NCBI RefSeq assembly: GCF_001570525.1
Contig: NZ_BBXC01000010.1
Coordinates: forward strand, 248,001-312,000
Source: Herbidospora sakaeratensis
GTDB taxonomy: Bacteria > Actinomycetota > Actinomycetes > Streptosporangiales > Streptosporangiaceae
Length of the DNA stretch: 64,000 nucleotides
Reading direction: 5' to 3'
Below, piece by piece: positions 51,794 to 64,000 of this stretch (its first letter is position 1; each line of letters begins with the position of its first letter). The position numbers were made by a program, and so were the translations under genes. The notes beneath the pieces are model-generated. The model was not told the origin of the DNA. It made no database searches and saw only the letters and a program-made list of their open reading frames with translations.

Positions 51794-52624
51794 TCACGAT
51801 GACGCGCTGATCCGCTCCTCTCCGGAGTAGACGTTCATGGACCGGCCACGCACGAACCCGAGCAGGGTCAACCCGGACTCGGCGGCCAGTTCCACCGCCA
51901 AGCTTGACGGCGCCGACACCGCGGCCAGCACCGGAACGCCCGCCATGACGGCCTTCTGGACGAGTTCGAACGAGGCCCTGCCCGACACCATGAGCGCCGT
52001 TTGCCGAAGCGGCAGCCGGCCGTCGCGCAGTGCCCATCCGACGAGCTTGTCGACCGCGTTGTGCCGCCCGACGTCCTCTCTGACGGCCAGCGCCCGGCCG
52101 GCCGGCGTGAACAGCCCGGCGGCGTGCAGGCCGCCGGTCCGGTCGAACACCTTCTGGGCGGTACGCAGCCTCTCGGGCAACTCGGCGATGACCTCTTCGG
52201 AGAAGGTGACGTCATCGGGGGCGACGTCCCAGCGGGCGACGGTCCGGACCGCGTCGAGCGACGCCTTCCCGCAGACCCCGCACGACGAGGTCGTGTAGAA
52301 GTTGCGCTCCAGCGAGGTGGCCGGCGGCGTCACGCCCGTCGTGAGCCGCACGTCGAGCACGTTGTAGGTGTTCTGGCCGTTCTCCAGGGCCCCCGCGCAG
52401 TAGCGGATGGCCTCGATGTCGCCCGCTTTCCCGATGACGCCCTCGCTGACGAGGAACCCGGCGGCCAGGTCGAAGTCGTCGCCGGGGGTGCGCATCGTGA
52501 TGGTGAGCGGCTTGCCGTTAAGCCGGATCTCCAGCGGCTCCTCGGCGGCCAGCACGTCGACCCGGTGACTCTGCCCGGTCTCCCGGACCCGCAGGATGCG
52601 CCGCTGGACGGTGACCCTACCCAT
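51794..52624 (-). CDS. fdhD: formate dehydrogenase accessory sulfurtransferase FdhD
   Basis: This 276-residue FdhD transfers sulfur to the molybdenum cofactor for formate dehydrogenase. The catalytic C-G-V-C motif lies in T-S-S-C-G-V-C-G-K-A-S near residue 115, with R-T-P-G-D-D-F-D-L-A-A-G-F and E-D-V-G-R-H-N-A-V-D-K also typical. It overlaps the Fe-S subunit gene by eight bases and is last in the formate dehydrogenase operon. Confidence 0.97.
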   Translation of the reverse strand: MGRVTVQRRILRVRETGQSHRVDVLAAEEPLEIRLNGKPLTITMRTPGDDFDLAAGFLVSEGVIGKAGDIEAIRYCAGALENGQNTYNVLDVRLTTGVTPPATSLERNFYTTSSCGVCGKASLDAVRTVARWDVAPDDVTFSEEVIAELPERLRTAQKVFDRTGGLHAAGLFTPAGRALAVREDVGRHNAVDKLVGWALRDGRLPLRQTALMVSGRASFELVQKAVMAGVPVLAAVSAPSSLAVELAAESGLTLLGFVRGRSMNVYSGEERISASS

Positions 52625-53483
52625 CGGAGGCCACGTTCTGGACGTGCTGGAAGCCGAACCGCCCCTTGATGCACAGATTGCCGTGGGTGACCGGGTTGTC
52701 GTGGGGCGAGGTGACCTTCACGATCGTGTTGTCCTGCACGTGGAGGGTCAGGTTGCAGCCCACGCCGCAGTAGCTGCAGATGGTGGTGGTCTGGGTCTGG
52801 CGTTCTTCGTCCCAGGTGCCGGCCTCGCGCATGTCGAACTCGTTCTTGAACGACAGGGCCCCCGTCGGGCAGACCTCGACGCAGTTGCCGCAGAACACGC
52901 AGGCCGAGTCGGTCAGCGGGGCGTCGAACTCGGTGGAGATGGTGGCGTCGAAGCCGCGCCCGGCGACCGAGATGGCGAAGGAGTTCTGCCACTGCTCGCC
53001 GCACGCGTCGACGCACTTGTAGCACAGGATGCACTTGGCGTAGTCGCGCACGTAGAGGTCGTTGTCGACCTTCGGGGGCTCGGCGACGGTGGCGGCGTCC
53101 TCCCCGAAACGGGCCGGGTCGGCGCCGTATTCGGCCATCCACTCCTTGGCGTTCGGCGTGGTCGACAGGTCGACCGAGGAGCCGAGCAGCTCCAGCACCA
53201 CCTTGCGGCTGTGGCGGGCACGCTCGGAGTCGGTCTTCACCACCATGCCGGGCTCGGCCTTGCGGGAGCACGCCGGGGCGAGGGTGCGGGCGCCCTCGAC
53301 CTCGACGACACAGACCCGGCAGGCGTTCTTCGGGTTGAGGGTGTCGCCGTAGCAGAGGGTCGGGATGTCCTTCCCGGCCGTCTGGCAGGCGTCGAGCAGG
53401 GTGTCGCCTTCGGGGACGCGCATCGCCTCGCCGTCGACGGTGATCTCGATGAGCCGCCGTGGCGGACGCAGGGGGACGCTCAT
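52617..53483 (-). CDS. formate dehydrogenase Fe-S subunit carrying the detached Mo-enzyme [4Fe-4S] domain
   Basis: This 288-residue protein has three parts. A [2Fe-2S] ferredoxin domain (about 12-90, C-R-V-C-V-V-E) comes first. Two [4Fe-4S] clusters follow (about 145-215: C-I-L-C-Y-K-C-V-D-A-C, C-V-F-C-G-N-C-V-E-V-C-P). Last is a molybdopterin-oxidoreductase Fe4S4 domain with Cys at about 236, 239, 243 and 271 (C-S-Y-C-G-V-G-C ... N-L-C-I-K-G-R-F-G). That last domain is normally the N-terminus of the catalytic chain, and here it ends this subunit. ATG 53483 overlaps the upstream stop (ATGA). Confidence 0.9.
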   Translation of the reverse strand: MSVPLRPPRRLIEITVDGEAMRVPEGDTLLDACQTAGKDIPTLCYGDTLNPKNACRVCVVEVEGARTLAPACSRKAEPGMVVKTDSERARHSRKVVLELLGSSVDLSTTPNAKEWMAEYGADPARFGEDAATVAEPPKVDNDLYVRDYAKCILCYKCVDACGEQWQNSFAISVAGRGFDATISTEFDAPLTDSACVFCGNCVEVCPTGALSFKNEFDMREAGTWDEERQTQTTTICSYCGVGCNLTLHVQDNTIVKVTSPHDNPVTHGNLCIKGRFGFQHVQNVASDG

Positions 53484-55414
53484 GAGCTCTCCTTTGCCGT
53501 GAACACACCAAGCCGGTCGATGGCCGATTCGACGGCGTTCCAGGCGGTCTGGCCTAGGCCGCAGATCGAGGCGTCGCGCATGGCCTGGCCCACCTCCCGC
53601 AGCAGCACCAGGTCGCCCTCGCTGCGCCGTTTGGAGAGCCGGTGGAGGGCCTCCTCCTGGCGGACCGTGCCGACCCGGCAGGGCACGCACTGGCCGCACG
53701 ACTCGTCGCGGAAGAACTCGGCGATGCGCAGCAGCACGCCGGGCAGCTCGACCGTGTCGTTGAGCACCAGCACCACCCCGGAGCCCAGCGTGGCCCCGGC
53801 GGCGCGGGTGCCCTCGAACGTCAGCGGGATGTCGAGCTCGTCGGCCCGTACGAACGCCCCGGCCGCGCCGCCGAGCAGCACCGCCCGCAGCTCGCCGGTC
53901 GCGCCTCCGGCCAGGTCGAGCAGGTCGCGCAGGGTGGCGCCGAACGGGACTTCGTAGATGCCCGGCCGCTCGACCGTGCCCGAGACGCAGAACAACTTGG
54001 TGCCGGTGGACGACGACGTGCCGACGGCCGCGTAGGCGGCGGCCCCCATCTCGAGGATGTGGGGCACGTTGACCAGGGTCTCGACGTTGTTGACGACCGT
54101 GGGCTTGCCGAACAGGCCCTTCTCCACCGGGAACGGTGGCTTGGTGCGCGGCTCGCCCCGGAACCCCTCGATCGAGTTGAAGATCGCGGTCTCCTCGCCG
54201 CAGATGTAGGCCCCGGCGCCGCGCCGGATCTCGATGTCGAACGAGAACCCCTGGCCGAGGATGTCGTCGCCGAGCAGCCCCCGCGACTTCGCGACGACGA
54301 TCGCGTTCTCCAACCGCTGGAGCGCACGCGGGTATTCGCCCCGGATGTAGAGGTAGCCGAGAGCGCAGCCGTTGGCGTAGCCCGCGATGGTCATGGCCTC
54401 GATCAGGGCGAACGGGTCGCCCTCCATCAGGACCCGGTCCTTGAAGGTGCCCGGCTCGCTCTCGTCGGCGTTGCAGACGAGGTAGTGGGGCCGGTCGAGC
54501 TGGCGTGCGGTCGCCTCCCACTTGCGGCCGGTGGGGAAGGCCGCGCCGCCCCGCCCGACCAGCCCCGACTCCAGGACCTCGCGGATGACCCCGGTGGGCC
54601 CGAGCTCGAAGGCGCGGCGCAATCCGGTGTAGCCGCCGGTCGCCCGGTAGTCGTCGAGACTCAGGGGGTCGACGACGCCGATGCGCCGGAGCAGGACCAG
54701 CTCGGATGGACCGGCCGACCGGCCGTCGTCACTCGACACTTCTTGGGCCGCTTCGCCAGGGGGAGCCTGGCCCTCGTGCGCGAGCCGCTCCGCGGTCGGT
54801 GCCGGCCGCGCGGGTGCCTGCCGGCACGCCCGGGTCTGCGGCACCGCGGCCTCGACGGGAGGTTCTTCTGTCGTGGCCGACCACTCCTGGCCGACCGAGC
54901 ACGGCCCGTAGACCGCGTTCACCGGGGGATCGCCCGCTTCGATCGCCAGGGCGGCGGGGGCGCGTTCGCACAGGCCCAGGCACGGGCTCGGCTGCCACGA
55001 CACCCCGGGAGGGCCGAAGCGCTCCTCGACGTCGCGGCGGACCGCCTCGGCGCCCTTGGCGGCGCACGCGAGGTCGGTGCAGACGTGGAGCATCCGGGCC
55101 TGGCGGGGCTTGACGGAGAACAACGAGTAGAAGGTCGCCACCGAATAGGCCTCGGCGGGTGGGATCGTCAGGCGGCGGCAGATGTAGTCGAGCGCGCCCT
55201 CGCTGATCCAGCCCACCCGGTCGTTGACCGCGTGGAGGGCGGGCAGCAGCAGGTCGCGGCGGTCGCGTGCCACCCGGGGGGCCTGCGTGGCGAAGCGCAG
55301 GTCGAACTCGGTGCGCTCGCCGCCGTCCCAGGCGGAAGACGGCGCTCCGAGGAGCGCGTCGACGACGGCGCGCTCCTCGGCGGTCGGTTCGGCGTCGCGG
55401 AACCGAAGATCCAT
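53480..55414 (-). CDS. NuoE-NuoF-type NAD-reducing subunit of formate dehydrogenase (fused)
   Basis: This is a 644-residue fusion. The N-terminal NuoE part (about 35-170) has the [2Fe-2S] ligands C-T-D-L-A-C and C-L-G-L-C. A Pro/Ala linker (about 185-240) follows. The NuoF part has the FMN/NADH motif G-R-G-G-A-A-F-P-T-G-R-K-W near 290, P-H-Y-L-V-C-N-A-D-E-S-E-P-G-T and the [4Fe-4S] ligands S-C-G-Q-C-V-P-C-R. It passes electrons from formate to NAD. FdhA lies seven bases upstream. Confidence 0.95.
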   Translation of the reverse strand: MDLRFRDAEPTAEERAVVDALLGAPSSAWDGGERTEFDLRFATQAPRVARDRRDLLLPALHAVNDRVGWISEGALDYICRRLTIPPAEAYSVATFYSLFSVKPRQARMLHVCTDLACAAKGAEAVRRDVEERFGPPGVSWQPSPCLGLCERAPAALAIEAGDPPVNAVYGPCSVGQEWSATTEEPPVEAAVPQTRACRQAPARPAPTAERLAHEGQAPPGEAAQEVSSDDGRSAGPSELVLLRRIGVVDPLSLDDYRATGGYTGLRRAFELGPTGVIREVLESGLVGRGGAAFPTGRKWEATARQLDRPHYLVCNADESEPGTFKDRVLMEGDPFALIEAMTIAGYANGCALGYLYIRGEYPRALQRLENAIVVAKSRGLLGDDILGQGFSFDIEIRRGAGAYICGEETAIFNSIEGFRGEPRTKPPFPVEKGLFGKPTVVNNVETLVNVPHILEMGAAAYAAVGTSSSTGTKLFCVSGTVERPGIYEVPFGATLRDLLDLAGGATGELRAVLLGGAAGAFVRADELDIPLTFEGTRAAGATLGSGVVLVLNDTVELPGVLLRIAEFFRDESCGQCVPCRVGTVRQEEALHRLSKRRSEGDLVLLREVGQAMRDASICGLGQTAWNAVESAIDRLGVFTAKESS

Positions 55415-55421
55415 GCGTCGG

Positions 55422-57347
55422 TCACCCGACCTTCGCGGGAACGAGACGGTCGATGCGCACCGCCGCGGCCTTGAACTCCGCGGTCCCGGCGATCGGGCAG
55501 GTCGCCTCGATCGTCAGGGCGTTGGTGTCGACCTCGTCGGGGAAGTGCATCGTCATGAAGACCAGGCCCGGACGCAGGGCCGGGTCGATGTAGACGGGAG
55601 CCACGACGGTGCCCCGCCGTGAGGAGACGCGGACCTCCTCGCCCGCGGTGACGCCCAGGCTCGCGGCGTCTTCGGGGGACAACTCGATGTTCTCGCCGCG
55701 CCGCAGCGGGGAGGCGAAGCCGGAGCTCTGCACCCCCGTGTTGTAGGAGTCGAGGCGGCGGCCGGTGGTGAGCCGGAACGGGTATTCGTCGTCGAGCAGG
55801 TCGACCGGTGGCGAGTGGCGCAGGATCGCGAACGGCGCGAGGCGGCCCCGTTTCTCCGGGTCGGTCTCCCACAACCGGCCGTGGAGGAACGGCGGTTCGA
55901 GCTCCTCGGTCGAGGGGCACGGCCACTGGATGCCCTGGTGTTCGGCCAGCCGCTCGTAGGTCATGCCGTAGTGGGCCGGCGAGACCGAACGCAGTTCGTC
56001 CCAGACCTCTTCGGCGCCGGAGTAGGCCCACTCGTGGCCGAGCCGGCGGGCCAGCTCGCACAGGATCCAGATGTCGTCGCGGGCCTCGCCCGGCGGCACC
56101 AGCGCGGCGCGCACCCGCTGGACGCGGCGCTCGCTGTTGGTGAAGGTGCCGTCGGACTCGCACCAGGCCGCCCCGGCGGGCAGCACCACGTCGGCCATCT
56201 GGGCCGTCTTGGTCAGGAAGATGTCCTGGACGACGAGGTGGTCGAGCATGCTGAGCCGCTTGATGCAGCTCAGCGAGTCGGCCTCGGACTGAACGGGGTT
56301 CTCGCCGATCAGGTAGCAGGTGGTGACCTCGCCCTCGGCCATGGCCTCGAGCATCTCGGTCAGGTTGAGGCCGTAACGCGGTTGGATCGGCGCCTGCCAC
56401 GCCGCCTCGAAGCGGGCCCGGATCGCCGGGTCGAGGATGTCCTGGAAACCGGGGAGCCGGTTGGGGATGGCGCCCATGTCGCCGCCGCCCTGCACGTTGT
56501 TCTGGCCGCGCAGCGGCGACAGGCCCGAGCCGTAGCGGCCGACGTGGCCGGTCAGCAGGGACAGGTTGATGAGGGCGCGCACGTTGTCGGTGGCGTTGTG
56601 GTGTTCGGTGATGCCGAGGGTCCAGACCAGCTGCGCGCGGTCGGCGCGGGCGTAGGCGTGGGCCATCTCGCGGATCGCGTCGGCGGGCACGCCGGTGACC
56701 TGCTCGGCGGCCGACAACGTCCATGGTTCGACGCTGGCGGCGTATTCGGCGAAGCCCTCGGTGGCGCGCTCGATGAAGGTCGTGTTGTGGAGGCCCGCGT
56801 GGATGATCTCGCGCGCCACGGCGTGGGCGAGCGGGATGTCGGTGCCGACGTTGAGGCCCAGCCAGCGGTCGGCCCACTGGGCGGTGCCGGTCCGGCGGGG
56901 GTCGACGGCGAACATCCTGGCGCCCTTGCGGATGCCCTTGAGGACGTGCTGGAAGAAGATGGGGTGGGCGTTGCGGGCCGCCGAGCCCCACATAAGGATC
57001 ACGTCGGCCTCTTCGACCTCCTGGTAGGAGGAGGTGCCGCCGCCGCTGCCGAAGACCGCCGACAGGCCCGCCACGCTCGGGGCGTGGCAGGTGCGGTTGC
57101 ACGAGTCGACGTTGTTGGTGCCGATGACCACGCGGGTGAACTTCTGCCCGATGTAGTTCATCTCGTTGGTCGACCGGGCGCACGACAACATGGCGAAGGC
57201 GTTGGGCCCGTGGGCCGCCACGTTGCGCCGGAACCCCTCGGCCGCGCGGTCGAGCGCCTCATCCCATGTGGCCCGCCGCAGCACACCGTCTTCACGTACC
57301 AGGGGATGGGTCAGCCGGTCGTAGTGCTCGGCCTTCTTCCTCTTCAT
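55422..57347 (-). CDS. formate dehydrogenase catalytic subunit (Mo/W-bisPGD), lacking N-terminal Fe4S4 domain
   Basis: This 641-residue protein starts at ATG 57347 (AAAGG nine bases upstream). It contains V-D-S-C-N-R-T-C-H-A-P-S-V-A-G-L, in which Cys87 replaces the selenocysteine of E. coli FdhF. Later come R-G-Q-N-N-V-Q-G-G-G-D-M-G and the C-terminal molydop-binding barrel (F-R-L-T-T-G-R). It begins in the L-T-H-P-L-V-R segment that normally follows the [4Fe-4S] loop, so the first domain is absent and is found at the end of the neighbouring Fe-S subunit. It oxidises formate to CO2. Confidence 0.93.
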   Translation of the reverse strand: MKRKKAEHYDRLTHPLVREDGVLRRATWDEALDRAAEGFRRNVAAHGPNAFAMLSCARSTNEMNYIGQKFTRVVIGTNNVDSCNRTCHAPSVAGLSAVFGSGGGTSSYQEVEEADVILMWGSAARNAHPIFFQHVLKGIRKGARMFAVDPRRTGTAQWADRWLGLNVGTDIPLAHAVAREIIHAGLHNTTFIERATEGFAEYAASVEPWTLSAAEQVTGVPADAIREMAHAYARADRAQLVWTLGITEHHNATDNVRALINLSLLTGHVGRYGSGLSPLRGQNNVQGGGDMGAIPNRLPGFQDILDPAIRARFEAAWQAPIQPRYGLNLTEMLEAMAEGEVTTCYLIGENPVQSEADSLSCIKRLSMLDHLVVQDIFLTKTAQMADVVLPAGAAWCESDGTFTNSERRVQRVRAALVPPGEARDDIWILCELARRLGHEWAYSGAEEVWDELRSVSPAHYGMTYERLAEHQGIQWPCPSTEELEPPFLHGRLWETDPEKRGRLAPFAILRHSPPVDLLDDEYPFRLTTGRRLDSYNTGVQSSGFASPLRRGENIELSPEDAASLGVTAGEEVRVSSRRGTVVAPVYIDPALRPGLVFMTMHFPDEVDTNALTIEATCPIAGTAEFKAAAVRIDRLVPAKVG

Positions 57348-57378
57348 CGACCTCATCCTTTCGTATTCTGTATACAGA

Positions 57379-57387
57379 CTACGGTAT
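57379..57387. promoter_or_regulatory. ATACGGTAT-like element, site 1 (before fdhA)
   Basis: CTACGGTAT matches eight of nine positions of the motif found at the two other promoters of this module. The palindrome CTGTATACAG (57368-57377) lies beside it, between kpr and fdhA. Confidence 0.55.
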
Positions 57388-57393
57388 GTGCGG

Positions 57394-58377
57394 TCATGCT
57401 GCGCCGACAAGCCGGGTCTGGGTGTCGAGCAGGTCGGTGACGGCGTGGATGGCACGCAGCGTGGGCACCGGGGTGGTGGTCAGGTCGGCCAGTTCGACCA
57501 CCGCCGAGAGCAGCACGTCGAGTTCGAGCGGCTTGCCCTTCTCCAGGTCCTGGAGCGTGGAGGTCTTGTGCTCGCCGGCCTTCTCGGCCCCGGCGAGCCG
57601 CCGCTCGATCGAGATGTGGGGGTTGCAGCCGACCGCCTGGGCGACCGCGACCGTCTCTTCCATCATGGTTCTGACCAGCTCGCGGGCGCCGGTGTGGCGG
57701 CAGATGCCGGCCATCGTCGCGCGGGCGAGCGCGCTGATCGGGTTGAACGCGACGTTGCCCATCAGCTTGACCCAGATGTCCTGGCGCAGATCGGCCTCGA
57801 CCGGGCATTTGAGGTCGCCGGCGACCATGGCGTCGCTGAACTCGGCGCACCTGGGCGACAACTCGCCGCTGGGCTCGCCGATGGAGAAGCGGGTTCCTTC
57901 GAGGTGGCGGATCACGCCGGGGGCCTCGATCTCGGTGGCGGCGTAGACGACGCAGCCGATGGCGCGCTCCAGCGGGAGCGCTTCGGTCACCGAGCCGCCG
58001 GGGTCGACGCTCTCGATGCGGTAGCCGTCATAAGGGCCGCCGAGGCGGTGGAAATACCACCACGGGATGCCGTTCTGGGCGGCGATGAGGGTCGTGGACC
58101 CGTGGAGCATCGGCGCGATCATCCGACCGGCCGCCGCGTAGGAGTTGGCCTTCAGGCCGAGGAAGACGTGGTCGACCGGGCCGACCTCGCCGGGATCGTC
58201 GGTGGTGTGCGGGTGGGCGGTGAAGTCGCCGCGCGGGCTGAGCACGCGCACGCCTGACTTCCGCATGGCCGCGAGATGCTCCCCGCGGGCTATCAGATGC
58301 ACCTCGACGCCGGCGCGATGCAGGGCGGCCCCCACATACGCGCCGATGGCGCCGGCGCCAAGAACAGCGACCTTCAC
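57394..58377 (-). CDS. 2-dehydropantoate 2-reductase family protein
   Basis: This 327-residue protein starts at GTG 58377 (V-K-V-A-V-L-G-A-G-A-I-G-A-Y-V-G). ApbA/PanE hallmarks are the NADPH loop, G-L-K-A-N-S-Y, A-A-Q-N-G-I-P-W-W, the central W-V-K-L-M-G-N-V-A-F-N-P and the C-terminal helical domain. It heads the formate dehydrogenase operon, away from the pantothenate genes, so it may reduce another 2-oxo acid. Such off-context KPR-like proteins are common, and the substrate cannot be read. Confidence 0.9.
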   Translation of the reverse strand: MKVAVLGAGAIGAYVGAALHRAGVEVHLIARGEHLAAMRKSGVRVLSPRGDFTAHPHTTDDPGEVGPVDHVFLGLKANSYAAAGRMIAPMLHGSTTLIAAQNGIPWWYFHRLGGPYDGYRIESVDPGGSVTEALPLERAIGCVVYAATEIEAPGVIRHLEGTRFSIGEPSGELSPRCAEFSDAMVAGDLKCPVEADLRQDIWVKLMGNVAFNPISALARATMAGICRHTGARELVRTMMEETVAVAQAVGCNPHISIERRLAGAEKAGEHKTSTLQDLEKGKPLELDVLLSAVVELADLTTTPVPTLRAIHAVTDLLDTQTRLVGAA

Positions 58378-58412
58378 ACTAGCTCCGTTCTCGCGTCGAC
58401 AGTGCATTCGGT

Positions 58413-58421: not shown

Positions 58422-58450
58422 GGCAACGGTGTCGTCAAGGAGGTCGCCCG

Positions 58451-59644
58451 ATGACCGTGCTGTCGCATACCCGGCCCGAACACGCCGCCGGGGCCGCCGA
58501 CCTGCCCTGGGATCGAGCCCGCCGGCTGGCCGCCGCGGCGACGTTGCCGCTGGTCGCGGCCGAGGTCCCGCTTCGGGCCGCCCACGGCTGCCGGCTCGCT
58601 GACGCGCTGCGTGCGCTCGTCGCCCTGCCGGGCGCCGACGTCTCGGCGATGGACGGCTACGCGGTCGGCGGCCCCGGCCCGTGGCACGTGGTCGGCGAGG
58701 TGCTGGCCGGGGGCGTCCCGTTCCCCCGGGAACTCGGGCCGGGCGAGGCCGTGGAGATCGCCACGGGGGCGCCCGTGCCCGGGGGGACCGTGTGCGTGGT
58801 GCCGTACGAGCAGACGGAGCAGGCCGGGCTGTCGATCAGCGGTCACTGTGAGCCGGGCCGCCACATCAGGCGGCGGGGGGAGAACGTCTCCGAGGGCGCG
58901 GTCGTGCTGACCTCGGGGGCGCTGGTGACGCCGGCCGTGCTCGGGCTGGCCGCCGGGCTCGGCCACGACACCCTGTGGGTGCGGCCGAGGCCGGTCGTGT
59001 CGGTGCTGGTCACCGGTGACGAGGTGGTGGGTTCGGGCATTCCGGCGGCCGGGCTGGTGCGCGACGCGGTGGGGCCGATGTTGCCGCCGCTGATCGCCTG
59101 GGCCGACGGCGAGGCGCTGCCGCCGCGTCACCTGCCCGACGGCGCCGAGGTGCTGGAGGCCGCGCTGAGGGAACCGGGGGCCGACGTCGTCGTGGTCTGC
59201 GGCGCGTCGTCGAAGGGGCCGGCCGATCACCTGCGCGGGGTGCTCGGCCGGCTCGGCGCGGCGGTCCTGGTCGACGGCGTCGCGGTGCGGCCCGGCCATC
59301 CGCAGGCCCTCGCCCGGCTGCCGGGCGGGCGGCTGGTGGTCGGGCTGCCCGGCAATCCGTTCGCCGCCCTGGCGGCGGCGCTGACGCTGCTGGCGCCGGT
59401 GCTGCGCGCGCTCAACGGGCGGCCCGAGCCGGAAGGCGAGCTCAGTGCCGTCAGCGGGCCGGTGCGCGCCCATCCGCGCGACACCCGCCTGGTGCCCGTC
59501 TGGAGATCGGCGCGGGGCGCGATCGCGGTCGGCCATGACCAGCCCGGGTCGCTGCGCGGGGCGGCGATGGCCGACGCCCTCGCCGTGATACCGCCCGGCT
59601 ACGACAGCGGCCCGGTGGAGCTCCTCGCCCTGCCCGCGCGGTAA
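58451..59644 (+). CDS. moeA: molybdopterin molybdotransferase MoeA
   Basis: This 397-residue protein inserts molybdate into adenylyl-molybdopterin. It shows the N-terminal A-H-G-C-R-L-A-D-A, M-D-G-Y-A-V and E-I-A-T-G-A-P-V-P-G-G motifs, V-L-V-T-G-D-E-V, and the end-domain P-G-N-P-F-A-A-L. AAGGAGG precedes ATG 58451. It supplies cofactor to the divergent formate dehydrogenase. It is probably a pathway-dedicated copy, since the housekeeping moa/moe set is not here. Confidence 0.94.
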   Translation: MTVLSHTRPEHAAGAADLPWDRARRLAAAATLPLVAAEVPLRAAHGCRLADALRALVALPGADVSAMDGYAVGGPGPWHVVGEVLAGGVPFPRELGPGEAVEIATGAPVPGGTVCVVPYEQTEQAGLSISGHCEPGRHIRRRGENVSEGAVVLTSGALVTPAVLGLAAGLGHDTLWVRPRPVVSVLVTGDEVVGSGIPAAGLVRDAVGPMLPPLIAWADGEALPPRHLPDGAEVLEAALREPGADVVVVCGASSKGPADHLRGVLGRLGAAVLVDGVAVRPGHPQALARLPGGRLVVGLPGNPFAALAAALTLLAPVLRALNGRPEPEGELSAVSGPVRAHPRDTRLVPVWRSARGAIAVGHDQPGSLRGAAMADALAVIPPGYDSGPVELLALPAR

Positions 59645-59774: not shown

Positions 59775-61457
59775 ATGACGGAAGAAGCCCCGGAACAGAT
59801 CTCCGGTGGTCACCTGGTCGCTAAGGCGCTCAAGGCGGAGGGGATCGACGTGATCTTCACCCTCTGCGGCGGCCACATCATCGACATCTACGACGGCTGT
59901 GTCGACGAGGGCATCGACGTGATCGACGTGCGCCACGAGCAGGTCGCCGCCCACGCGGCCGACGGCTACGCGCGCATCACCGGCAAGCCCGGTTGCGCCG
60001 TGGTCACCGCGGGTCCCGGCACCACCGACGCCGTGACCGGAGTGGCCAACGCCTTCCGCGCCGAGAGCCCGATGTTGCTCATCGGCGGCCAGGGCGCCCT
60101 GAGCCAGCACAAGATGGGCTCACTGCAAGACCTGCCCCACGTCGACATGATGACCCCGATCACCAAGTTCGCCGCGACGGTGCCCTCCACCGAGCGGGTG
60201 GCCGACATCGTGTCGATGGCGTTCCGCGAGTGCTACAACGGCGCGCCCGGCCCGTCGTTTCTCGAGATCCCGCGCGACGTGCTCGACGCCAGCGTGCCGG
60301 TGGCCAAGGCCCGCATCCCCCAGGCCGGCCGCTACCGCGCCTCCACCCGCCAGGTGGGCGACCCCGAGGCGATCGAGCGCCTGGCCGACCTGCTCGTCCA
60401 CTCCGAGAAGCCCTGCGTGCTCCTCGGCAGCCAGGTCTGGACGACCCGCGGCACCGACGCCGCGATCGACTTCGTCCGCGCCCTCAACGTGCCCGCCTAC
60501 ATGAACGGCAGCGGCCGGGGCACCCTCCCGCCCGGCGACCCCCACCACTTCCAGCTGTCGCGGCGCTACGCCTTCAACGAGGCCGACCTCATCATCATCG
60601 TCGGCACCCCGTTCGACTTCCGCATGGGCTACGGCAAGCGGCTGTCCAGCACCGCCAACGTCGTGCAGATCGACCTCGACTACCGCACCGTCGGCAAGAA
60701 CCGCGACATCGACCTCGGCATCGTGGGCGACGCGGGGCTCATCCTGGCCGCCGCCGCGCAGGCCGCGTCGGGCCGGGTCGACAACGGCGCCGCCAAGCGC
60801 AAGGAGTGGATCGAGGAGCTGCGTGCGGTCGAGACGCAGGCGTTCGAGAAGCGGCTTCCGCGCCAGCTCTCGGCGGCCGCGCCGATCGACCCCTACCGGC
60901 TGGTCCACGAGATCAACGAGTTCATCACCGAAGACACCATCTACATCGGCGACGGCGGCGACATCGTCACCTTCTCCGGCCAGGTCGTGCAGCCCAAGTC
61001 GCCCGGCCACTGGATGGACCCGGGCCCCCTCGGCACCCTCGGCGTCGGCGTCGCCTTCGCGATGGCCGCCAAGTACGCCGAGCCCGACAAGGAGGTGCTG
61101 TGCCTGTTCGGCGACGGCGCCTTCTCCCTCACCGGGTGGGACTTCGAGACGATGGTCCGCTTCGACCTGCCGTTCATCGGCGTCATCGGCAACAACTCGT
61201 CGATGAACCAGATCCGCTACGGCCAGGCCGCCAAGTACGGCAACGACCGCGGCCGCGTCGGCAACACCCTCGGCGACGTCCGCTACGACGAGTTCGCCCG
61301 CATGCTCGGCGGCTACGGCGAAGAGGTCCGCGACCCCGCCGACATCCGGCCGGCGCTCGAGCGCGCCCGTGAGTCGGGCAAGCCCGCGCTGATCAACGTG
61401 TGGGTCGATCCCGACGTCTACGCCCCCGGGACCATGAACCAGACGATGTACAAGTAG
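59775..61457 (+). CDS. ThDP-dependent enzyme, oxalyl-CoA decarboxylase-like (atypical)
   Basis: This 560-residue enzyme has the catalytic Glu55 in R-H-E-Q and the ThDP motif from G-D-G-A-F to G-N-N. A frc gene follows directly, so oxalyl-CoA decarboxylase or 2-hydroxyacyl-CoA lyase is expected. However, the Tyr-Glu pair of O. formigenes Oxc (residues 120-121) and its Tyr483 are absent: the local sequences are L-Q-D-L-P-H-V and N-N-S-S-M-N-Q. C-G-G-H-I-I-D-I-Y-D-G-C recalls actinobacterial IlvG-annotated proteins. The function is therefore open between these decarboxylase/lyase roles. It is not a typical acetolactate synthase context. Confidence 0.8.
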   Translation: MTEEAPEQISGGHLVAKALKAEGIDVIFTLCGGHIIDIYDGCVDEGIDVIDVRHEQVAAHAADGYARITGKPGCAVVTAGPGTTDAVTGVANAFRAESPMLLIGGQGALSQHKMGSLQDLPHVDMMTPITKFAATVPSTERVADIVSMAFRECYNGAPGPSFLEIPRDVLDASVPVAKARIPQAGRYRASTRQVGDPEAIERLADLLVHSEKPCVLLGSQVWTTRGTDAAIDFVRALNVPAYMNGSGRGTLPPGDPHHFQLSRRYAFNEADLIIIVGTPFDFRMGYGKRLSSTANVVQIDLDYRTVGKNRDIDLGIVGDAGLILAAAAQAASGRVDNGAAKRKEWIEELRAVETQAFEKRLPRQLSAAAPIDPYRLVHEINEFITEDTIYIGDGGDIVTFSGQVVQPKSPGHWMDPGPLGTLGVGVAFAMAAKYAEPDKEVLCLFGDGAFSLTGWDFETMVRFDLPFIGVIGNNSSMNQIRYGQAAKYGNDRGRVGNTLGDVRYDEFARMLGGYGEEVRDPADIRPALERARESGKPALINVWVDPDVYAPGTMNQTMYK

Positions 61458-61465
61458 GGAGCGGC

Positions 61466-62692
61466 ATGCCCAAGGCCTTGGAGGGCGTCCGCGTCCTCGA
61501 CATGACCCATGTGCAGTCGGGCCCGTCCGCGACGCAGCTGCTCGCGTGGCTCGGCGCCGACGTCGTCAAGCTGGAGGCCCCGACCGGCGACATCACCCGG
61601 AGCCAGCTGCGTGACCTGCCCGGCGTCGACAGCCTCTACTTCACGATGCTCAACTGCAACAAGCGCTCCATCACGCTGAACATGAAGAGCGAGCGCGGCA
61701 AGGAGCTGTTCGTCAAGCTCGTTCAGGAGTCCGACGTCCTGGTCGAGAACTTCGGCCCCGGCGCGGTCGACCGCATGGGCTTCTCCTGGGAGCGGCTCCA
61801 GGAGCTCAACCCCCGCCTCATCTACGCGTCCATCAAGGGCTTCGGCGGCGGGAAGTACGCCAAGTTCAAGGCCTACGAGGTGATCGCCCAGGCGATGGGC
61901 GGCTCGATGGCCACCACCGGGTTCGAAGACGGCCCGCCGCTGGCCACCGGCGCGCAGATCGGCGACTCCGGCACCGGCGTCCACGCCGTCGCCGGCATCC
62001 TGGCCGCGCTCTACCAGCGCGAGTCCACCGGCCAGGGGCAGCGGGTGCAGGTCGCCATGCAGCACGCCGTGCTGAACCTGTGCCGGGTCAAGCTGCGCGA
62101 CCAGCAGCGGCTGGCCCACGGCGCCCTGAAGGAATACCCGAACCGCACCTTCGGCACCGAGGTGCCCCGGTCGGGCAACGCCTCCGGAGGCGGCCAGCCC
62201 GGCTGGGCGGTGAGGTGTGCGCCCGGCGGGCCCAACGACTACATCTACGTCATCGTCCAGCCGGTCGGCTGGAAACCCGTCTCCGAGATCATCGGCCGCC
62301 CCGAGCTGGCCGACGACCCCGAGTGGGCCACCCCCGAGGCGCGGCTCAACAAGCTCGACAAGATGTTCCAGCTGATCGAAGAGTGGTCGAGCCAGCACGA
62401 CAAATGGACCGTCCTCGACCGGCTCAACGCGGCCAACGTGCCCTGCGGGCCCATCCTGTCCACCGCCGAGCTCATCGACGACGAGTCGCTGCGCGCCGAG
62501 GGCGCGGTCGTCACCGTCCCCCACCCGGAGCGCGGGGAGTTCACGACGGTCGGCAGCCCCCTCCAGCTCTCCGGCTCCCCGGTCGACATCACGACGCCGC
62601 CGCTGCTCGGAGAGCACAACGACGAGATCTACACGCGGCTCGGGGTCACGGCCGAGGAGCTGGCCGAGCTGAAGACGAACGGAGTGATCTGA
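61466..62692 (+). CDS. frc: formyl-CoA:oxalate CoA-transferase (class III)
   Basis: This 408-residue protein closely follows the O. formigenes Frc pattern: V-L-D-M-T-H-V-Q-S-G-P (Gln17), S-L-Y-F-T-M-L-N-C-N-K-R-S-I, V-E-N-F-G-P-G-A, catalytic Asp167 in Q-I-G-D-S-G-T-G, and the glycine loop S-G-G-G-Q-P-G-W. It ends P-L-L-G-E-H-N-D-E. It moves CoA from formyl-CoA to oxalate (or a related acid). It starts eight bases after the ThDP gene with AGGGAGCGG upstream. Confidence 0.92.
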   Translation: MPKALEGVRVLDMTHVQSGPSATQLLAWLGADVVKLEAPTGDITRSQLRDLPGVDSLYFTMLNCNKRSITLNMKSERGKELFVKLVQESDVLVENFGPGAVDRMGFSWERLQELNPRLIYASIKGFGGGKYAKFKAYEVIAQAMGGSMATTGFEDGPPLATGAQIGDSGTGVHAVAGILAALYQRESTGQGQRVQVAMQHAVLNLCRVKLRDQQRLAHGALKEYPNRTFGTEVPRSGNASGGGQPGWAVRCAPGGPNDYIYVIVQPVGWKPVSEIIGRPELADDPEWATPEARLNKLDKMFQLIEEWSSQHDKWTVLDRLNAANVPCGPILSTAELIDDESLRAEGAVVTVPHPERGEFTTVGSPLQLSGSPVDITTPPLLGEHNDEIYTRLGVTAEELAELKTNGVI

Positions 62693-62693
62693 G

Positions 62694-64000
62694 ATGTCGG
62701 CAGAAGTCCGGGAGATCCTGGACAAGGCACGGGCCGAGGGGCGCACCGCGCTCACCGCTCCCGAGGGCAAGCTCGTCTGCGACGCCTACGGCATCGCCAC
62801 CCCCGGTGAGGGCCTGGCCACGTCGGCCGACCACGCCGTCGAGCTGGCCACCTCAATCGGGTTCCCGGTCGTGCTGAAGATCGTCTCCCCGGACATCCTG
62901 CACAAGACCGAGGCCGGCGGCGTCCTGGTGGGCGTGGCCTCGGCCGAGGCCGTCCGCGCCGGCTACGCCCAGATCATCGCCAACGCCGAGGCCTACGACG
63001 CCGGTGCCGTCATCGACGGCGTCCAGGTGCAGCAGATGGTCGGCGGCGGCCACGAGGTGATCATCGGTGCGGTGACCGACCAGACGTTCGGCAAGGTGGT
63101 CGCATTCGGCCTCGGCGGAACGTTGGTCGAAGTGTTAAAGGATGTGACCTTCCGGCTCGCCCCCCTAACAGTGCATGATTCCCTGGCGATGCTGGACGAC
63201 ATCAAGGCGGCCGAAGTGCTGCGTGGGGCCCGCGGAGCCGCACCGGCCGACCGGGCGGCTCTGTCGACCATGATCGAGCGCGTCGGCGCGCTGGTCGCCG
63301 ACTTCCCCGAGATCGCCGAGGTCGACCTCAACCCCGTCTTCGCGTCCGCGAACGGCGCCGTGGCCGCCGACGTGCGCATCATCCTGTCGGCCGAACCGCC
63401 GGTGGAGACCCCGCGCATCCCGCGCGAGGAGATCCTCGCCAAGATGAACCGCATCTTCCGCCCGCGCGCCGTCGCCGTCATCGGCGCCTCCGGCGAGACC
63501 GGGAAGATCGGCAACTCGGTCATGCGCAACCTGATCAACGGCGGCTTCCGGGGCAACATCTACCCGATCAACCCGAAGTCCTCCGAGATCCTCGGGTTAC
63601 CCGCCTATCCGAGCATCGCCGACGTGCCCGGCGAGATCGACGTCGCGGTCTTCGCCATCCCGGCCGCGTTCGTGCCGGCCGCCCTGGAGGCCGCGGGGGA
63701 GAAGGGCGTCGCCGGCGCCATCATGATCCCCTCGGGCTTCGCCGAGACCGGCAACGTCGAGGGCCAGCGGGAGGTCGTCGAGATCGCCCGCAAGCACGGC
63801 GTACGCATGCTGGGCCCGAACATCTACGGCTATTACTACACCCCCGAGAATCTCTGCGCGACCTTCTGCACCCCCTACGACGTGCAAGGACACGTTGCGC
63901 TGACCTCCCAGAGCGGCGGCATCGGGATGGCGATCCTGGGCTTCAGCCGCACCACCCGGATGGGCGTCTCCGCGATCGTCGGAGTCGGCAACAAGGCCGA
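62694..64000 (+). CDS. ADP-forming acyl-CoA synthetase (beta-alpha fusion), partial
   Basis: The 435 codons visible run off the right edge. The order is an ATP-grasp_5 beta domain (about 1-235: V-L-K-I-V-S-P-D-I-L-H-K-T, G-G-T-L-V-E-V-L-K-D-V, E-V-D-L-N-P-V), then a CoA-binding alpha domain (R-A-V-A-V-I-G-A-S-G-E-T-G-K-I-G, N-P-K-S). S-Q-S-G-G-I-G begins the next segment. It starts one base after the frc stop. It could link formyl-CoA to ADP phosphorylation or activate oxalate; the direction is unknown. Confidence 0.88.
   Translation, partial: MSAEVREILDKARAEGRTALTAPEGKLVCDAYGIATPGEGLATSADHAVELATSIGFPVVLKIVSPDILHKTEAGGVLVGVASAEAVRAGYAQIIANAEAYDAGAVIDGVQVQQMVGGGHEVIIGAVTDQTFGKVVAFGLGGTLVEVLKDVTFRLAPLTVHDSLAMLDDIKAAEVLRGARGAAPADRAALSTMIERVGALVADFPEIAEVDLNPVFASANGAVAADVRIILSAEPPVETPRIPREEILAKMNRIFRPRAVAVIGASGETGKIGNSVMRNLINGGFRGNIYPINPKSSEILGLPAYPSIADVPGEIDVAVFAIPAAFVPAALEAAGEKGVAGAIMIPSGFAETGNVEGQREVVEIARKHGVRMLGPNIYGYYYTPENLCATFCTPYDVQGHVALTSQSGGIGMAILGFSRTTRMGVSAIVGVGNKA

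Follow-up and report, generated by a model that had tools for sequence, protein, structure and literature searches.

We analysed a 64,000-nucleotide stretch of the genome of Herbidospora sakaeratensis (contig NZ_BBXC01000010.1, positions 248,001 to 312,000; hereafter the window) and found at its end an operon of three head-to-tail genes on the + strand. The first encodes a thiamine diphosphate (ThDP)-dependent enzyme of 560 amino acids, which we call X (59775–61457). The second is frc, encoding formyl-coenzyme A (CoA):oxalate CoA-transferase (Frc; 61466–62692, 408 amino acids from an ATG start), and the third is acd, encoding an ADP-forming acyl-CoA synthetase (Acd; 62694–64000) that continues beyond the window end to a full length of 708 amino acids. 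The X stop codon and Frc are separated by 8 nucleotides, the Frc stop codon and the synthetase by 1 nucleotide. Sequence comparison makes it highly probable that this operon is oxalate-catabolic and that X is its oxalyl-CoA decarboxylase (OXC), drawn from outside the clade of canonical OXC and 2-hydroxyacyl-CoA lyase (HACL). With slightly more reserve, we also regard it as probable that X represents a second, independently evolved OXC family of Actinomycetota and Pseudomonadota that lacks the Tyr-Glu-Tyr-Ser residues of the canonical enzyme, has repeatedly displaced it or been displaced by it as the partner of one and the same frc family, and outnumbers it in frc-bearing actinomycetes.

With the oxalate_frc equivalog model TIGR03253, Frc scored 656.4 bits (cut-off 504.2); its best solved-structure match is E. 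coli YfdW, and it carries Gln17, the catalytic Asp167 and the glycine loop GGGQP at residues 241–245. By these marks it is a true member of the formyl-CoA transferase family, as a sequence-only reading of this DNA had recognised. An frc over the cut-off was present in 8 of 246 genomes of the phylum, 21 of 60 genomes classed as relatives (among them six genus mates of the 8.6-Mb host genome) and 34 of 394 genomes of the class, altogether 52 different genomes. Of these, 43 have X immediately 5′ of frc and contain no protein that exceeds the cut-off of the OXC model TIGR03254; in the other nine an OXC is present (eight over the cut-off, and G012 at 730.3 against 739.4 bits) and X is absent, the nearest protein to X being at most 39% identical. 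None of the 52 genomes has both X and OXC, and none has neither. A TIGR03254 search of the host genome returned no protein over the cut-off. Among the 42 X genomes other than the host, tblastn confirmed X in 40, at 79.7–99% identity; in G628 and G388 it was identified by score and adjacency only. All 80 named loci, taken as the best 80 of 566 relatives confirmed in named genomes, keep the order X-frc-acd, with 14–178 nucleotides between X and Frc as judged by match ends; genera with this arrangement include Streptomyces, Amycolatopsis, Nonomuraea, Prauserella, Kibdelosporangium and Saccharopolyspora.

X and canonical OXC have also changed places beside frc. A tree of 59 Frc sequences (39 partnered with X and 20 with OXC) contains at least six changes of partner, forced by its starred branches; the partner labels of loci L110 and L271 were assigned per genome and not per adjacency. 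Genome G277 has a frc-acd-Nramp-TerC cassette without X and a canonical oxc on the same contig, and G182 has kept sucCD with an aldehyde dehydrogenase gene, as well as frc-acd, with X absent and oxc ~22 kb away. In G472, sucCD and the aldehyde dehydrogenase gene stand between two X-type frc copies, which are inverted and closely similar (L271, G472:C34); neither X nor acd is found there, and the same contig carries a canonical oxc-frc pair. A sucCD/frc-acd cassette in Cupriavidus campinensis resembles the X-bearing one of Cupriavidus metallidurans but lacks X and has oxc nearby.

Proteobacterial X was found on plasmid records only (five records, 67–70% identity), and the complementarity with OXC was counted in Actinobacteria. 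On two Phyllobacterium plasmids X (67–68% identical) is annotated only as "thiamine pyrophosphate-binding protein" and adjoins frc, oxlT, acetate--CoA ligase, two sucCD pairs and 2-dehydropantoate 2-reductase, a PanE homologue; gcl is visible in one of the two plasmid stretches. X-frc-acd is also present in C. metallidurans and Caballeronia M1242, together with homologues of PanE and SucCD; we found no literature statement of oxalate growth by C. metallidurans CH34. Complementarity in 52 genomes, partner exchange in the Frc tree and oxalate-pathway neighbours in two phyla together give good support to the earlier suggestion that X is an unrecognised type of OXC.

X is not a canonical OXC by score, residues or clade. 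It has three TPP_enzyme domains and the ThDP motif GDG...NN from residue 446, and scored 246.2 bits with TIGR03254 (245.8 in the genome-wide search) against the cut-off of 739.4. Canonical Oxc (TIGR03254; O. formigenes 2C31, E. coli YfdU) resembles X in lying beside frc, partly also with acd, sucCD and a GntR gene, in its ThDP domains, and in alternating with X, but the two are 24–30% identical in the nine OXC genomes and have different ancestries. In a tree of 58 ThDP enzymes, X forms one clade (100/100) and OXC with HACL synthase a separate one (100/100). A forced X+OXC clade was rejected (P value of the approximately unbiased test, p-AU, 1.08e-95), and so was a forced clade of X, OXC and HACL synthase (p-AU 2.5e-06). 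X joins a group of sister proteins at 89/71, which is weak, and the sister rows do not form one clade. A deeper grouping with 2-hydroxyisobutyryl-CoA lyase (95/85) comes with a long-branch warning; such warnings apply to the lyase row, a Bosea row and the outgroup.

The sister ThDP proteins (L226–L234) are 43–47% identical to X and are present in other actinobacterial families. A tblastn search with reference proteins detected no frc or acd near their genes in the nine loci (6–16 kb each); its matches were limited to the ThDP gene and, in L234, a single MoeA-like stretch. Open reading frame (ORF) calls on these loci were poor at high GC.

We then compared active-site residues in an alignment of 25 X, 10 OXC, 9 PRK05858 and 7 sister proteins together with one lyase, one HACL synthase and the Bosea protein. 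The OXC residues Tyr120, Glu121, Tyr483 and Ser553, named in PMC10192776 (here and below, papers are cited for the parts of their text that were available), are kept in 10/10 OXC rows and replaced by Leu117, Gln118, Ile480 and Gly552 in 25/25 X rows. The absence of the Tyr-Glu pair and the Tyr from X, noted earlier for the single protein, thus extends to all its aligned homologues. The catalytic Glu (Glu56 in OXC, Glu55 in X) is present in 25/25 X rows and in every other row, and is not OXC-specific.

These replacements weigh against X as an OXC. The substitutions Y126A and E127A strongly cut the activity of a mycobacterial OXC (PMC7190790), and a four-substitution M. extorquens variant retained <0.2% of decarboxylation efficiency (PMC8411744). 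The residues matter in OXC and are absent from X, and X must therefore manage by other means. The oxalyl carboxylate may be held by His112, Lys113, Gln479, Arg481 or the C-terminal tail (QTMYK), all of them invariant in the X rows; Cys31, invariant as well, is a further candidate for taking over from the Tyr-Glu-Tyr-Ser residues. On the ThDP tree, X and its sisters join PRK05858 at 100/99, and are thus near to proteins named acetolactate synthase. In principle, an oxalate operon could also hold another formyl-CoA-making enzyme.

If X is the decarboxylase, we infer the following route. Frc would transfer CoA from formyl-CoA to oxalate, yielding oxalyl-CoA and formate. In X, ThDP would add to the oxalyl-CoA carbonyl, CO2 would be lost, and the carbanion would be protonated to give formyl-CoA, which Frc could reuse. 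The formate would be oxidised by the formate dehydrogenase encoded next to the operon. A share of the oxalyl-CoA probably goes to glyoxylate instead, reduced by the product of a PanE-like or aldehyde dehydrogenase gene, and is assimilated via glyoxylate carboligase. The ADP-forming synthetase probably spends ATP on starting or replenishing the pool of CoA esters.

The sequence-only reading had taken the third gene for an ADP-forming acyl-CoA synthetase, and this stands: it has ATP-grasp_5 followed by CoA-binding domains, a Succ_CoA_lig part truncated by the window end (25.9 against 27.4) and an SHTG motif. Domains and motif are those of the ADP-forming 3-hydroxypropionate--CoA ligase 9Y43, with which the full-length protein is collinear, and of the 4-hydroxybutyrate--CoA ligase 8WZU, but Acd differs from synthetases of this type in falling below every equivalog cut-off (best 547.3 against 1300), so that no known substrate class is matched. 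The further proposal that the triad is a distinct energy-conserving route, in which the synthetase forms ATP from formyl-CoA, was not supported, and we consider it improbable. The ADP-forming acyl-CoA synthetase family is reversible, and the uneven occurrence of the synthetase, present in 31/31 X stretches read vs 4/15 OXC stretches, would fit such a route and speaks in part against our own view of the synthetase. Frc, however, spends one formyl-CoA per oxalate activated, and therefore no formyl-CoA is to spare for ATP as long as Frc is the activator, unless oxalyl-CoA is made otherwise. In addition, the synthetase accompanies canonical oxc-frc in four of the OXC stretches, directly after the pair in Skermanella, near it in Paracoccus and C. 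campinensis, and also in G277. It was not found in the OXC stretches read of G074, G066, G174, G012, G455, G472 and G423, nor in those of Azospirillum, Methylobacterium, Caballeronia SBC1 and L109 (whose genome, G182, has a synthetase in L110). The synthetase is not confined to X operons, yet it is tied more closely to X than to OXC. Setting aside a special ATP-yielding triad on these grounds, we find it likelier that the synthetase serves to start or replenish the pool of CoA esters, especially while oxalyl-CoA is being drawn off into glyoxylate.

The other function offered for X in the sequence-only reading, that of a 2-hydroxyacyl-CoA lyase or synthase that makes or uses the formyl-CoA handled by Frc, is less probable still. 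By sequence, the best solved-structure match of X is an actinobacterial 2-hydroxyisobutyryl-CoA lyase (AcHACL, 7PT1), with which it shares an LQD motif and the Gln128 position, and X scored 361.9 bits with the 2-hydroxyacyl-CoA lyase model NF058623, below the cut-off of 600. The catalytic Glu493 of the lyase, a position we recognised because the deposited structure variants differ exactly at that residue, aligns however with Ile480 in 25/25 X rows, and the lyase Gln that we take to be Gln41 aligns with Cys31, again in 25/25. Glu493 acts as acid/base, a role absent from OXC, whose decarboxylation needs no such proton transfer (PMC8760513). X keeps the lyase- and acetolactate synthase-like Gln and is without the proton shuttle of the lyase, and is therefore as expected for a decarboxylase and not for a lyase. 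Its surroundings argue in the same direction: the neighbours identified are oxalate, formate and glyoxylate genes (no dedicated search for 2-hydroxyisobutyrate, or 2-HIBA, genes was made), and X alternates with OXC instead of co-occurring with it. We set the lyase function aside, the acid/base Glu being absent.

The best NCBIfam match of X is PRK05858, an IlvG-like "acetolactate synthase" (504.5 bits, below the cut-off of 587), whose members are 37–39% identical to X, share its GGH, IYDG and LQ motifs and make up its nearest large group on the tree. The PRK05858 rows are true members of that model (774–984 bits against 587 in 8/8 scanned, L138 not being among them). The nine PRK05858 rows and the 25 X rows each form their own starred clade, and X does not lie inside the former. 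Ile480 of X is Glu in 9/9 PRK05858 rows, and position 31, Cys in 25/25 X rows, is Ser or Thr in the nine PRK05858 and seven sister rows. The IlvG-type C-G-G-H/I-Y-D-G-C features ascribed to X from its sequence therefore hold for GGH and IYDG and not for Cys31. The clustering with verified acetolactate synthases that the same reading had named as a refuting result was not seen for the biosynthetic acetolactate synthase of the host (L011, 1059.7 bits against 881), which lies in the outgroup, far from X; X does lie near PRK05858, an acetolactate synthase by name. That X is an acetolactate-synthase-like or glyoxylate-carboligase-like enzyme for carbon assimilation from oxalate is the least credible alternative, as the host genome has its own PRK05858 member (895 against 587, on another contig), the biosynthetic acetolactate synthase and a glyoxylate carboligase over the cut-off, and 43 frc-bearing genomes would be left with no recognisable oxalyl-CoA decarboxylase.

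X is real and conserved, and very likely a variant, apparently unrecognised so far, of an enzyme function already known. Surveys treat oxc as a key gene of oxalotrophy (PMC10192776, PMC7190790), and OXC is defined by conserved residues or an InterPro family and called highly conserved (PMC7190790, PMC10192776). In the available parts of PMC7190790, PMC11271303, PMC10192776, PMC12927642, PMC7176365, PMC2864759, PMC11347878, PMC8760513, PMC8411744, PMC8004701 and PMC9476978, among other literature, we found no description of the X group as OXC; subscription journals lay outside this coverage, and the result is no proof of absence. A survey that seeks only the textbook enzyme would miss X-type operons, which in our sample means the 43 of 52 frc-bearing actinobacterial genomes without a protein over the OXC cut-off. 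Oxalate-degrading Streptomyces are on record in PMC11347878, which cites Sahin 2004. If our reading of X is correct, the path from oxalate to formate would be complete in many actinomycetes, among them Streptomyces, Amycolatopsis and Nonomuraea. The ThDP superfamily would then have evolved OXC chemistry on two occasions, with different active sites, and the engineering of formyl-CoA carboligation, now pursued with OXC and HACL (PMC8411744, PMC11271303), would gain X as a further scaffold to start from.

Together with its flanks, the X-frc-acd region can be read as an island of genes for oxalate, formate and glyoxylate. The − strand upstream holds a formate dehydrogenase operon and a gene for a PanE/ApbA-family reductase (57394–58407; NF005089, 442.1 against 223); between these and X is a MoeA-like molybdenum cofactor gene on the + strand (58445–59644, start approximate; MoeA_N and MoCF_biosynth). 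Behind the synthetase follow genes for an Nramp-family transporter, a TerC protein, a GntR regulator, a major facilitator superfamily (MFS) protein, sucCD, glyoxylate carboligase and an aldehyde dehydrogenase, and, by eye, for hydroxypyruvate isomerase and tartronate semialdehyde reductase. The glyoxylate carboligase gene lies ~10 kb past the synthetase (NF008431, 884.2 against 791; TIGR01504 slightly below its cut-off), and the MFS protein weakly resembles the oxalate/formate antiporter (OFA) family (63.3 against 374.85). The aldehyde dehydrogenase (L007:13538–15076) belongs to no specific family (best NCBIfam match 132.9 against a cut-off of 521). It and the PanE-like protein are two candidate oxalyl-CoA reductases, the role of the aldehyde dehydrogenase being a guess; within the flanks examined around X-frc-acd in the named loci, homologues occur in 37/80 and 39/80, respectively.

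The formate dehydrogenase operon comprises, all on the − strand, the catalytic subunit (FdhA part; 55422–57455; TIGR01591, 637.2, slightly below the cut-off of 666.25), a NuoE-NuoF-like fused subunit, probably of the same enzyme (53480–55414; matches to TIGR01959 and TIGR01958, both below cut-off), a ferredoxin-like subunit (52617–53480) with an SYCGVGC iron-sulfur motif read by eye, and an FdhD-like accessory protein (51794–52624; an ORF read by eye and a recurrent neighbour at other loci). The alpha subunit (52617–57455) seems to be split: the ORF at 55422–57455 matches TIGR01591 only from model position 49, and the SYCGVGC segment lies near the C-terminus of the separate ORF at 52617–53480. 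A Cys occupies what we take to be the selenocysteine place of formate dehydrogenase (RTCHAPS).

The Nramp-family transporter gene (L007:1471–2967) stands directly after the synthetase and has a homologue in 32/80 named loci; its product may be an oxalate importer or may handle metal freed from metal oxalates. Most Streptomyces loci have in its place an MFS protein 31–37% identical to the OFA-like one of the host. A sucCD-like pair is found in 45/80 named loci and also in L259, L260, L265 and L269, and accompanies both decarboxylase types in both phyla.

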